55,342 nt of DNA from Planctomycetota bacterium (GTDB taxonomy: Bacteria; Planctomycetota; UBA8742; UBA2392): NCBI GenBank assembly GCA_025993795.1, contig JAMQHL010000032.1, forward strand, positions 1-55,342. Reading direction: 5' to 3'. Within the stretch, counting starts at the first letter, position 1. Each line of letters begins with the position of its first letter. The translations under genes and the position numbers were made by a program. Positions 51,421 to 55,342 of this stretch are shown piece after piece. The notes beneath the pieces were generated by a model that did not search any database, was not told the DNA's origin, and was given only the letters and a program-made list of their open reading frames with translations.

Positions 51421-52371
51421 ATGGCATCCTCGCCTGTCAACGCAGCGGACCTCACACAAGAGCAGTTGGTCAAATTCCTGATCGAGAAAATCAAATGGAA
51501 CGTCGAAATCGCGCCCTTCTGGCCCACGCGCGGCGTTGTCGGCGGCAAGCTGCGCTATGCCCGCACCAACCAGCTGAGCTCGGCTGACATCAACGCCATG
51601 GCGACCATCCTGGCCGACGGCGCCAACATCGTTGATCAAACCCCCGCCGTTGACGAAAATGTCACCTACACGCTGGGCGAGCTCTCAAGCCGCTATAAGC
51701 TTGACTACAACGCCCAGGACCGCTGGCGCTACCAGAGCATCGACAACGCGCTTTCCCTGTTGGCTTGCCTGCGCTGCCTGCTGATGAGCTTCCGGAAGCT
51801 CGACCTCGACAACACCAGCGCCGAGGGCGACTACGACTCGCTTTACGACATGTGCGACGCGGGCCAGATCGTTGATATGGCAGGCGTTGCGCCGACGCTG
51901 GCCAAGCTGCAGGAGACCTGGCACCTCGTGGTGGCTGGCACGCGGCCGAACCTGATCATGTGTAACCGGCGGGCCAGCCGGGCGATCATCAAGGCGTTCA
52001 ACGATAAGAACATGCACCCGACTGAGATCGAAATGATGTTCCCGGACCCGATCACGGGCAAGAAGAGCCCGCGCCGCGTGCCTGCGATCAACGGCACGCC
52101 GATTCTGATCAACGACCTGATCGCGACGGCAGACGGGACCGACCTGACGCGCATCTACATGATGGTCATGGGCGAAGACTGCGAACAGGGAATCCACGGC
52201 GTCATCGGCCTCGTGCCCAAGGACCTCGAGGGCAAGCTGTTCATCCGCCGCGAATCCGCCGAGCCCAGCGCCGCCACAACCTCGCTTATGAACGTGACAT
52301 ACACATACCCGACAGCCACAGCCATGGGCTGCGCCAGCGCGCTGGCCATCCTGGAGGACGTACTGGTGTAG
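51421..52371 (+). CDS. HK97-fold major-capsid-like protein (stand-alone)
   Basis: 316 residues, soluble, no signal peptide. Pattern matches HK97-fold capsid or encapsulin-type proteins: an N-terminal arm, GDYDSLYDM (the 'FDGL'-like turn), LIMCNRRASRAIIKAF, and RVPAINGTPILINDLIATADGTDLTRIYMMVMGE, ending in a strand set and TATAMGCASALAILEDVLV. Start ATG 51421 follows GGGGGCAAGCC. No portal, terminase or protease gene is in the window. Encapsulin shell or domesticated capsid are both possible; the fold call is by eye and moderate. Confidence 0.55.
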   Translation: MASSPVNAADLTQEQLVKFLIEKIKWNVEIAPFWPTRGVVGGKLRYARTNQLSSADINAMATILADGANIVDQTPAVDENVTYTLGELSSRYKLDYNAQDRWRYQSIDNALSLLACLRCLLMSFRKLDLDNTSAEGDYDSLYDMCDAGQIVDMAGVAPTLAKLQETWHLVVAGTRPNLIMCNRRASRAIIKAFNDKNMHPTEIEMMFPDPITGKKSPRRVPAINGTPILINDLIATADGTDLTRIYMMVMGEDCEQGIHGVIGLVPKDLEGKLFIRRESAEPSAATTSLMNVTYTYPTATAMGCASALAILEDVLV

Positions 52372-52537: not shown

Positions 52538-53593
52538 ATGGTCATGGCGTCAGACAAGAAAGAATGCGGCTGCACCCCAACGCCCAGCCTTCCGCGCCGG
52601 TCATCGGTCCTGTTCGAGGGTGTCGGCAACGACCCGCTGACACCAACAGCAACCGGCCTGACCCTACCGTTCGCCCAAAACGGCGTATTCCGCCTGCCAA
52701 AGCACATGGTAGACGAAACCCCAGCGCACGAACCAACGCCCAGAGCAAGCTCCGGCAACGCACTGGGCACAGGCCTGAACGCGGTGTTTGCCGAAGCGGC
52801 ACGTTCGCCGGGTGATGTGTCCGGGAGGCAAAGGTCTCATTCCTACGTCGGCCTTGACCATGATTCACTTCGAACGCTCTTGCGAAACGTTGATGTGAGT
52901 GGAGCACTACTGCCTGCCTCAGATACAGGCGTAGGCATCCCACAAATGGTTGGCGCCCCCTTCTTCAGGTCCGTGCTTGCCACTAGCAATGGGTTTCCCG
53001 ATTCGCTGTTAGAGGACCTCATCCAGGGGCAATCCGTAGGAGTTGGCGCGACTGGAATGGGGTCCGGCGGCAGCGCCGGTGGCGCACCCAGCATTGAGAT
53101 CAGGGGAAAGAAAGGCAAGACTGCCATAGGCATCATCCCGCTTGTCAAGATTCCGCAGTTACCCAAGCCGGGCGGACCTTTTGGCCCGCCAAACACCAAG
53201 TTGACTGGCGTTGGAATCACTATATATGTTGACGACCCGGCCGTACTCGCTGTTCTCCTGCGAATTGCATTCTGGCCGTTCTCACTATTGTGGCTGCTGT
53301 TCGGTGACCACTCGGACAATCCGAAGGCCGGAGCCTACTATCGCAAACGGAAGTACGATTGCAAAGACCACTGTGATTCGGTTTCTGATGATCTGCGTGC
53401 TAGAGCAAGTGCGGCGTACTCAGGTGCAATATCGAACTGCGGAGCGGATCAAGCATGTGCAGCCCGCGCGAATGAGAGATACAACGCGACAATGGACGCT
53501 ATCGACGAGTGGCAGCTGAACTGTAAGGTGGCATGCTGGAAATACTGGGATGCGAAGTACGACGAAGCATTTCCTTCGCAAGCTGGAGAATAG
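52538..53593 (+). CDS. Composite ORF of unknown function with Cys-rich helical C-terminus
   Basis: 351 residues (ATG 52538; ATG 52544 has a better-spaced AAAGG). Residues 1-100 are Pro/Gly-rich and encoded at about 64% GC; the rest is at about 55%. Residues about 225-255 form one hydrophobic segment (PAVLAVLLRIAFWPFSLLWLL), then a helical tail has three Cys pairs spaced CxxxC, CxxxxxC and CxxxC, perhaps disulfide-linked hairpins. I see no known catalytic motif. Layout (conserved-looking head, foreign tail, next gene a MORN/YwqK-like lipoprotein) recalls polymorphic effectors, but that is inference. Confidence 0.6.
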   Translation: MVMASDKKECGCTPTPSLPRRSSVLFEGVGNDPLTPTATGLTLPFAQNGVFRLPKHMVDETPAHEPTPRASSGNALGTGLNAVFAEAARSPGDVSGRQRSHSYVGLDHDSLRTLLRNVDVSGALLPASDTGVGIPQMVGAPFFRSVLATSNGFPDSLLEDLIQGQSVGVGATGMGSGGSAGGAPSIEIRGKKGKTAIGIIPLVKIPQLPKPGGPFGPPNTKLTGVGITIYVDDPAVLAVLLRIAFWPFSLLWLLFGDHSDNPKAGAYYRKRKYDCKDHCDSVSDDLRARASAAYSGAISNCGADQACAARANERYNATMDAIDEWQLNCKVACWKYWDAKYDEAFPSQAGE

Positions 53594-53594
53594 A

Positions 53595-54563
53595 ATGCGC
53601 GCGCGACTCGTGCGCGGACGGCGCGATAGTACTCGCGCCCGCTTAATCTCCGCTGCAATTCTTTCCCTGGCGGCAACCGCTATGTTGGGTTGTCACGCGC
53701 CGGAGCGTTTTCAGTTAGCAATCGACTACGATGCAACTGGTGAGCCGGCGCGAGTTGCTGTTCTCAAAGTTCACGACGGGAGCATTTTGCGGCATGGACC
53801 ATGGGCAGAGTACCACAGCAACGGGCAGACAGCCACATCGGGTACTTATGCGTACGATCGTGCGCACGGCTGGTGGGTCAAGTATTTTCCATCGGGCAGC
53901 GTGGAAGCAGTGTCGTCATTCCGGAACGGTCGACAAGATGGTCCCACGTACACATTCTTCGCAGACGGCAGGGTCAGTACTCTTCACTATTACGTGGACG
54001 GTGTGGCCAATGGTCCGTACCTTGCTTGGTATGAAGATGGCAACATTGAGACCAGGGGCATGTTCACTCTAGGCCGGGAGTCGGGCCGCTGGACGTGGTA
54101 TTTTCCAAGCGGCCGTGTCGACTCCATTGAACAATACGCCGACGGCGTTCTGAACGGTTATTATGCCCAGTGGAGCGCTCAAGGTAGCAAAGTAATGGAC
54201 GGTATCTTCTTATGCGGCCGCGCCATTGGAAAATGGAAGGTCTACCGACCGAACGGAAGTGTGGCCCGCTACGCCCATTTTCTTACAGGCGTCCAGCATG
54301 GGCTTGCTGTCGAGTACCACGATAATGGCCAGCAATCTGCCGTCGGCCATTTTCTATTCGGGCACGCATGCGGATTGTGGCGATACTATTATGAAAGCGA
54401 GGAGCTGATGGCCGAGGGCAGTATCTTGGCGGGGAAACGTGTTGGGCAATGGATATATTACAATGAAGACGGAACAATTTCGGAAGTTGTGGACGGTGGT
54501 TTGGAGGAAGTAGAGTATGACTTACCCTCGGTGATGCCTCCGGGGTCAACACGGGATAAGTAG
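53595..54563 (+). CDS. MORN-repeat lipoprotein (YwqK-like)
   Basis: 322 residues. A basic n-region (about 18 residues) precedes a lipobox (AMLGC, Cys33). The body is about nine MORN-type repeats of 22-24 residues (GPWAEYHSNGQTATSGTY, then GRWTWYFPSGRVDSIEQY, GKWKVYRPNGSVARYAHF), the YwqK pattern: a hydrophobic-aromatic pair, then xxGxx. YwqK proteins are immunity partners of YwqJ-type toxins in Bacillus. It begins 1 nt after the previous stop, so is translationally coupled to the composite ORF. GC is low relative to the window. Confidence 0.8.
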   Translation: MRARLVRGRRDSTRARLISAAILSLAATAMLGCHAPERFQLAIDYDATGEPARVAVLKVHDGSILRHGPWAEYHSNGQTATSGTYAYDRAHGWWVKYFPSGSVEAVSSFRNGRQDGPTYTFFADGRVSTLHYYVDGVANGPYLAWYEDGNIETRGMFTLGRESGRWTWYFPSGRVDSIEQYADGVLNGYYAQWSAQGSKVMDGIFLCGRAIGKWKVYRPNGSVARYAHFLTGVQHGLAVEYHDNGQQSAVGHFLFGHACGLWRYYYESEELMAEGSILAGKRVGQWIYYNEDGTISEVVDGGLEEVEYDLPSVMPPGSTRDK

Positions 54564-54594
54564 TCGTCAAGGCCCGAGTGTGGATAGCGAACGG

Positions 54595-55342
54595 ATGAGA
54601 CGTGGCAGGGTTGCTCAAATGGGGAATGTAGGAGCACTTCGTCCCGGTGAAACCGTCGGGATGTTTGGGCTGGATGCGGCTTTGGAGACTTGCCTTCCTG
54701 CGCACTTCGGGCGGGTGGTTGGGGGTGTTTCAGTTTCTGGGGCGCCGGGGCGGATGGGTTCAGCATCCGCGCCGTCTTCGAGCGATGACTTTGGCGACGA
54801 GAGAGGGCCGGTCGTTGCCCGGGATACTTCGCGTGACACGAACCCGGTCGCTGGTGCTCCCGACTTCGCCCAAGCTACGTCGGACAGGCCCGGCTCTTGT
54901 TTTTCTGTTTCGTCGCCAGACATTCCCCGGGCTTTGGGGCTTTCGGGAACCATAACGACGACAGGCACCGCTTCGTGGAGTCAGCCCCCAACTGGCGACT
55001 GCGACCCGCCGGGCCGCGAAACCCCGTTCGACAACTTCGCGCAGCTGGTGGCTCAGACTCGCATGCCCTTTCCCGACCAGGAACGCGACTCCGCCTGCTA
55101 CGGCGGCGGCATCTCCGGCACCGGCGACGTGGAAGGCCCCTCGACCAGCACCGACAACGCCATCGCCCGCTATGACGGCACCACCGGCAACGTAATCCAG
55201 AACAGCGGCGTTACGATCAATGACGATGGCGACATGTCCGGCGGCGCTTCCATTACGATTGCCAAGAACCTTTTCACCGGCAACGGCAACGCGGCCAAGC
55301 CCAGCCACTCATTTCAGGGCGACACCGGGTCAGGCATGTTCC
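54595..55342 (+). CDS. Phage tail-fibre-like protein (partial, 5' start uncertain)
   Basis: An open frame runs from ATG 54595 to the end of the window. Its 3' part reads STDNAIARYDGTTGNVIQNS, then GVTINDDGDMSGGASI and GDTGSGMF: the repeated pattern of tail-fibre or tail-spike proteins, often followed by an S74 peptidase chaperone. The 5' part (about 54600-54912) overlaps repeat copy B and has no obvious domain, so the true start may be later, for example near the ATG at 55063. It is truncated by the window edge. Confidence 0.6.
   Translation, partial: MRRGRVAQMGNVGALRPGETVGMFGLDAALETCLPAHFGRVVGGVSVSGAPGRMGSASAPSSSDDFGDERGPVVARDTSRDTNPVAGAPDFAQATSDRPGSCFSVSSPDIPRALGLSGTITTTGTASWSQPPTGDCDPPGRETPFDNFAQLVAQTRMPFPDQERDSACYGGGISGTGDVEGPSTSTDNAIARYDGTTGNVIQNSGVTINDDGDMSGGASITIAKNLFTGNGNAAKPSHSFQGDTGSGMF
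54817..54912 (-). repeat. Stem-loop repeat, copy B
   Basis: Opposite orientation to copy A. On the minus strand: ACAAGAGCCGGGCCTG, then the stem CCGAC/GTCGG around a GC-TTGG-GC centre. It lies inside the 5' part of the tail-fibre-like frame. Confidence 0.6.

Follow-up and report, generated by a model that had tools for sequence, protein, structure and literature searches.

Polymorphic toxin-like cargo cassettes behind encapsulin-like shell genes in a family of Planctomycetota

Encapsulins have so far been regarded as compartments for enzymes and for storage, and polymorphic toxins as proteins that ride secretion systems and phage parts. In the YwqJ/YwqK pair of Bacillus, a MORN_2-type protein is encoded behind a variable protein. 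Family 2A encapsulins are described as loading their cargo via a disordered N-terminal domain (PMC8049743). Capsid-linked polymorphic toxins (MuF) are known from temperate phages, and delivery by capsid-like particles has been proposed (PMC5576092, PMC3482391). A term search of the text of a large encapsulin survey finds no word beginning 'toxin' (PMC8346489), and the abstract of a 2024 Brevibacillus study presents encapsulin-like capsids as putative antibacterial proteins (PMC11245835). In titles and abstract openings of the openly licensed literature, no published description of an encapsulin-borne polymorphic toxin-like cargo was found.

Here, we describe a locus laid out like a polymorphic effector/immunity system for which an encapsulin-like shell is the carrier, and from which we infer toxicity, immunity, loading and delivery. 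If this is true, a shell with a swappable, partner-linked cargo would join the two fields, and encapsulins would gain a role in bacterial conflict.

The window and its encapsulin-like shell gene

The stretch of DNA analysed, referred to as the window, is 55,342 nucleotides long and makes up all of contig C23 in a 3.29-Mb genome assembled in 75 contigs. The features under study lie near its end:

51421..52371, + strand: shell protein, 316 aa, predicted HK97 fold, Family-2-encapsulin-like (AF2 model, PDB matches, PHROG)
52544..53593, + strand: cargo ORF, 349 aa (P0001), with its ATG at 52544; the ORF of an earlier note on this DNA begins at 52538
52544..52801, + strand: conserved head, residues 1-86, with C8-x-C10, predicted shell-loading part (identity to P0002 and to the G014 locus)
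52802..53218, + strand: Gly/Pro-rich linker, residues 87-225, without Cys (composition)
53243..53299, + strand: hydrophobic stretch, residues 234-252, mean hydropathy 2.1 over 19 residues, the highest among 25 cargos examined
53309..53590, + strand: variable tail, residues 256-349, three Cys pairs (Cys positions, weak likeness to other cargo tails)
53595..54563, + strand: third gene, MORN_2 repeat protein with a lipobox-like N-terminus, predicted partner/immunity protein (Pfam, relatives behind other cargos)
54580..55342, + strand: weakly tail-fibre-like ORF that runs off the contig (phrog_28473, E 0.0079) and may not belong to the cassette

Cys 8 and Cys 10 near the N-terminus, the upstream shell gene and the weakly tail-fibre-like ORF at the contig end had gone unnoticed in the earlier note. 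A motif in this last ORF (54580-55342), STDNAIARYDGTTG, recurs in ORFs located behind shell genes at two related loci, L027 (12206-13402) and L030 (10650-12677), at the latter immediately behind the shell.

The AF2 model of the window shell has a pLDDT of 75.5. Its nearest solved fold, by Foldseek, is the Family 2A encapsulin SrpI (PDB 6X8M), with approximately 18% identity in the structural alignment, and its best seven matches in the PDB are all Family 2 type encapsulins, placed above all the phage capsids listed. The shell also matches the PHROG 212 major head protein (E 1.2e-8). From the model, we infer that the window shell is probably an encapsulin-type HK97 protein. Pfam PF19307 (SrpI-like) has no match in the window shell and matches only one of 16 shells (E 1.2e-5); for this reason the shell is named Family-2-like and not a member of that family. 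Within the 13 shell-bearing genomes introduced below, PF19307 otherwise finds only two other, canonical SrpI-like genes, in G006 (contig 33) and G013 (contig 88), two genomes that hold these canonical encapsulin genes beside the new shells. Several shell copies are broken by frameshifts or stops. At L045, L062, L070, L073 and L076 the shell gene is in two reading-frame pieces and the cargo ORF behind it is open.

Among 31 genomes near the window's, the shell is found in 13, all of one Planctomycetota family, with 1-11 matches each when fragments are counted and at least three in nine of the 13. Across 392 Planctomycetota genomes it occurs in 20, namely 13 of the 16 of the window's family and seven others. 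When named genomes were scanned with the shell alignment, 30 loci came up, 29 in Planctomycetota records and one on a contig labelled Fimbriimonadaceae, another phylum. The latter (L060, 1-4964) holds the end of a shell gene, a cargo, a MORN gene, a second shell and a second cargo in tandem, through either misbinning or transfer. In another Planctomycetota family, L089 and L090 have a tandem shell gene pair behind what by eye is a sigma-54-type regulator, with no Cys-head cargo in view; shells of family f69, which have a different arrangement, were set aside. Shell and cassette genes are often found at contig ends (window 55342, L031, L037, L039, L043, L075), as expected of repeated genes. For the comparisons that follow, 87 shell matches were reduced to 46 without duplicates, of which 34 loci were kept. 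Excluded were 11 pieces, which were either parts of shells already counted or lacked sequence downstream, and a single locus followed by 101 nt.

Cargo genes and the third genes behind them

The earlier note had drawn attention to a drop in GC content inside the cargo ORF, which was confirmed: 63.7% in 52561-52860 versus 55.3% in 52861-53580, in a window of 62.9%, with the neighbouring MORN gene similarly low at 55.4%. The fall from the first 300 nt to the rest of the ORF amounts to 7.8 points. An equal fall is seen in one of 165 control genes and a difference as large in either direction in four of them. The first 200 nt have a higher GC content than the part after 300 nt in 24 of 25 cargo genes, among them the window's. 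The head, which the note took to match its host, does have a GC content near the window's; it is more than host-like, however, being the Cys-pair head found behind encapsulin-like shell genes. Other claims of the note stood as made. The tail has three Cys pairs (273/277, 299/305 and 327/331 in P0001 numbering) and matches no known family at E 1 in Pfam or 0.1 in NCBIfam, and the neighbour is a predicted MORN lipoprotein by its match to Pfam PF07661 (MORN_2, E 7.6e-20) and its lipobox-like N-terminus. Read by eye, the sequence of the window tail suggests a helical hairpin. Its closest relative is the tail at L043, a weak match (phmmer E 0.016, six-sequence set). Whether the Cys tails that look helical (window, L037, L038, L043, L070, L035) have one fold in common was considered, and the idea was rejected, their mutual phmmer E-values being 0.005-1.7.

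The window cargo has a single relative among 5.8 billion proteins, P0002 (352 aa), which is 72% identical to it over residues 8-87 and unrelated behind; a global protein search with head residues 1-92 returned the window protein and P0002 only. The head occurs a third time, with 49% identity over residues 1-76, at a locus of G014 (L002/L027), a genome of the window's family; the shell gene that precedes it there has 78% identity to the one in the window, and the reading frame is broken between head and tail.

A C-x(1,2)-C motif within the first 22 residues of an ORF at most 450 nt downstream of the shell is present at 26 of the 34 distinct loci, and a Cys-pair ORF lies further downstream at two more (L041, L030). 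The scan is loose, in that any start codon counts, and it also scores at 151 of 1040 random places (approximately 15%), in four of 28 cases when the same stretches are read on the reverse strand, and in seven of 23 stretches upstream of shells; among called control genes the motif is found in two of 213. A convincing Cys-pair cargo is absent from the scanned stretch at six of the 34 loci, four of which (L042, L067, L065, L009) are without any convincing cargo. At L012 and L032 the cargo has a head without the Cys pair, followed by a segment in common with L033. Head type and the presence of a Cys pair in the shell are associated (Fisher p 0.0036), in a table of 20 of 33 rows typed by eye and confounded by descent.

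Residues 20-150 of the cargos are 9.8% Pro versus 5.5% in controls, and the tails are 3.2% Cys versus 1.1%, with at least four Cys in the last 150 residues of 16 of 22 cargos and of 18 of 160 controls. No hydrophobic N-terminus was seen in any of 26 cargos. Searches of 28 cargos against Pfam and NCBIfam gave no match below E 0.004, scattered single matches at E 0.004-0.09 being regarded as noise, and returned none of the cysteine desulfurase, terpene cyclase, polyprenyl transferase and xylulose kinase families. The MuF domain was likewise absent from the 28 (Pfam), and PADLOC had no match for the window proteins and P0002.

The gene behind the cargo, termed the third gene, starts within 60 nt of the cargo stop in 21 of 23 cases. 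A hydrophobic start is found in 18 of these 23, versus 67 of 213 controls, and is lacking in five. Starts of third genes were re-chosen, as a first rule had skipped those beside the cargo stop, and the 213 controls were kept under the first choice. Hydrophobic starts numbered 16 of 27 by the first rule, 19 of 24 after re-choice (cargos above 100 aa) and 18 of 23 without L027, which was removed because it proved to be a piece of tail. Ten third genes that were scanned carry PDZ (three, one just under the cut-off), MORN_2, LRR and transglutaminase-like domains, the rest having no match over the cut-off. The transglutaminase-like domain (PF01841, E 4.4e-20) is in the third gene at L038 11084-12571, unlike the repeat scaffolds elsewhere. 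Relatives of the window MORN protein are encoded near other shells or cassettes (L064, L060, L046, L116), whose tails end in what by eye is a beta-type Cys domain, unlike the window's. As MORN relatives follow such tails, the MORN type is tied to no single tail type, and the pairing for the window itself is therefore weaker.

Tail and third gene are exchanged together

Tails and third genes are swapped as a unit, whichever head precedes them. This is seen where the window's own genome (contig 17) and G002 (contig 4), both of one genus, have shell, cargo and third gene at a matching chromosomal position (L036/L037). A single blastn match, 91.5% over 1453 nt, takes in the shell gene and the cargo gene up to about nt 300; it is uneven, 100-nt blocks ranging from 71 to 98% with one shell block at 79%. 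The tail and third gene that follow cannot be aligned, after which the flank resumes at 91.3%. The earlier note had proposed a comparison of homologous loci, and this came out positive, with a conserved N-terminus of about 100 residues, unrelated C-termini and different genes behind. The even divergence along the whole ORF that it had named as the contrary outcome did not occur.

Among 22 cassettes, all six pairs with similar tails also have similar third genes (permutation p 5e-5). Pairs with similar heads have similar third genes in three of 33 cases (p 0.58) and similar tails in one of 33 (p 0.61). The pairing of tail and third gene is not one to one, because 15 of 21 pairs with similar third genes, mostly repeat proteins (LRR, MORN), have dissimilar tails. 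The 22 were taken from 29 cargos, leaving out the near-copy L072, those shorter than 200 aa (L010, L030, L027, L046) and those without a third gene in view (L060, L019); they include the second cassette of L035, probably a head fused to a lipoprotein remnant.

For one tail type, B1, a prediction was set beforehand. At four further places, three of them new, B1 precedes the third-gene type of L036, L063 and L068 (E 2.3e-16, 2.1e-13, 5.6e-9 and, in two pieces, 8.4e-5), such that this tail is followed by the same type in seven of seven cases overall. L027 and L076 have different heads and share both the tail (E 4.7e-70) and the third gene (E 4.3e-98), while a MORN third gene and, as read by eye, the tail are common to L060 and L046.

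Cassettes are also found in tandem without a shell between them, at L116 and L040; L116 (1-2560), at a contig start, reads head, tail, MORN and then a new head. In the window's own genome, a lipoprotein-like relative stands free behind a complete cassette (L115, E 2.3e-27). This sequence (L115 1824-2420) resembles L035 6809-7435, being free-standing in one genome and fused in frame behind a bare head in the other. The lipoprotein-like sequence of the second L035 cassette is like a leftover partner gene.

B1 is the best-modelled tail type (pLDDT 88), and its model has no convincing match in the PDB. A pore-forming (Cyt-like) fold was rejected, the PDB rows having E 0.08-0.3 and TM below 0.2. 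The invariant residues of B1 are Cys (mostly), Ala and Val only, none of catalytic type. As judged from these residues, an enzyme seems less likely than a domain that binds or acts on membranes. A global search with the B1 cargo alignment returned five proteins, of which two are named, both as hypothetical proteins of Planctomycetes or Planctomycetaceae.

Interpretation and comparison with known systems

The earlier note had read the window ORF and its neighbour as a polymorphic toxin/immunity locus. The layout, a shared head with swapped tail and next gene, agrees with this; no known toxin domain was found. The explanation preferred here, which we hold to be somewhat more probable than an even chance, combines an encapsulin-like shell, a head-loaded cargo, a swappable tail toxic outside the producer and a third protein, predicted to be exported, that protects kin. 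Judging by its fold, the shell gene product would assemble into an encapsulin-like compartment, into which the conserved N-terminal head and linker would load the cargo, by analogy with Family 2 encapsulins. The particle would be released by lysis or another route. As the layout suggests, the tail would then act as a toxin outside the producing cell and the exported third protein, here the MORN lipoprotein, would protect kin, the cognate effector/immunity pair meeting outside the cytoplasm. If the cargo is cytoplasmic and the partner with which it is inherited is exported, the two would make contact only outside the producer's cytoplasm; a released effector with kin immunity would therefore fit better than an internal complex.

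A more detailed version is held with less than even confidence. It pictures a nanocompartment turned weapon carrier, with encapsulin-type shells multiplied along the chromosome and interchangeable, disulfide-stabilised toxins of no known kinship that are loaded through the Cys-pair head, released and directed at the envelope of neighbouring cells, and with a cognate exported MORN, LRR or PDZ protein, encoded after each tail, that protects kin. The Cys-pair head is a simple candidate loading signal, and the loci yield tails that have no known relatives, along with probable cognate binders.

The tail and third protein may instead form a pair for kin/non-kin recognition (ligand/receptor or adhesin) that does no killing, with the shell storing or displaying the ligand. 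The binding scaffolds PDZ, LRR and MORN among the ten third genes scanned are consistent with this, as is the resemblance of the MORN protein to the adhesin model NCBIfam LIC20035 (66.6 of 250 bits, far under the cut-off). So too is the lack of conserved catalytic-type residues in tail B1, although many toxins are pore formers without catalytic residues. Recognition alone, however, leaves unexplained the block replacement at a fixed site, the tandem spare cassettes and the free-standing partner gene, all typical effector/immunity traits, and this reading is considered unlikely.

It is improbable that the loci are remnants of prophages or gene transfer agents with a variable structural or decoration protein as cargo. 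The HK97 fold, the PHROG major head protein match and the weakly tail-fibre-like ORF downstream speak for such an origin. Against it, the predicted shell fold lies closer to encapsulins than to capsids of phages, and the flanking genes look chromosomal by eye. Portal PF04860, TerL PF03354 and prohead protease PF04586 each occur in none of the 13 genomes. Terminase PF03237 does match in 10 of the 13, a point in favour of such an origin, but not in the window's genome, and only one of its 15 places is near a shell fragment (approximately 11 kb, G011 contig 32); the others are more than 70 kb off or on other contigs, the latter being weak evidence in draft genomes. Weak relatives, with 22-27% identity, are found in 11 viral contigs and also favour this origin; scans of viral contigs with the window shell alone and the window cargo alone gave no result.

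Slightly less probable again is action of the cargo within the cell that makes it, such as that of an abortive-infection toxin kept in the shell until phage attack. Such a role would suit the want of a hydrophobic N-terminus in all 26 cargos and the fold common to the shell and phage capsids. Most third genes look exported, however, and their products would thus be unable to neutralise a cytoplasmic toxin; moreover, the Cys-rich tails suit an oxidising place and PADLOC had no match for the window cargo and P0002. An ordinary metabolic encapsulin with an enzyme-type cargo and tails differing by plain divergence is very improbable: known encapsulin cargos are described as mostly enzymes (PMC8346489), but 28 cargos here match nothing in Pfam or NCBIfam below E 0.004, and tail and third gene were replaced as a block at one site where shell and head are still 91% identical.

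The preferred reading, a shell-borne toxin with kin immunity, has partial counterparts among known systems. The kinship to YwqJ/YwqK put forward in the earlier note extends to the MORN_2 repeats of the window partner; no YwqJ-type domain was found, and the MORN protein has a lipobox-like start and is one of several third-gene types. As described for SrpI and its cysteine desulfurase (Family 2A; PMC8049743), the cargo gene adjoins the shell gene and the N-terminal region is Pro-rich and may be disordered. Unlike in that system, the cargo is variable and without a cysteine desulfurase match, several loci are present per genome, the partner is mostly exported-looking and the head carries a Cys pair. 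With the MuF toxins of phages, the loci share a capsid-linked conserved part joined to variable C-termini, as set out in PMC5576092 and PMC3482391. They differ in having an encapsulin-like carrier and chromosomal-looking loci, with no MuF in 28 cargos and neither portal PF04860 nor TerL PF03354 in 13 genomes. In contrast to the classical polymorphic toxin systems CDI and Rhs, they show no known trafficking or toxin domain, their head is only about 60-100 residues long and their partners are mostly exported-looking. What they share with these systems, described in part in PMC3482391, is a constant head, a swappable tail, a co-swapped downstream gene and spare cassettes.
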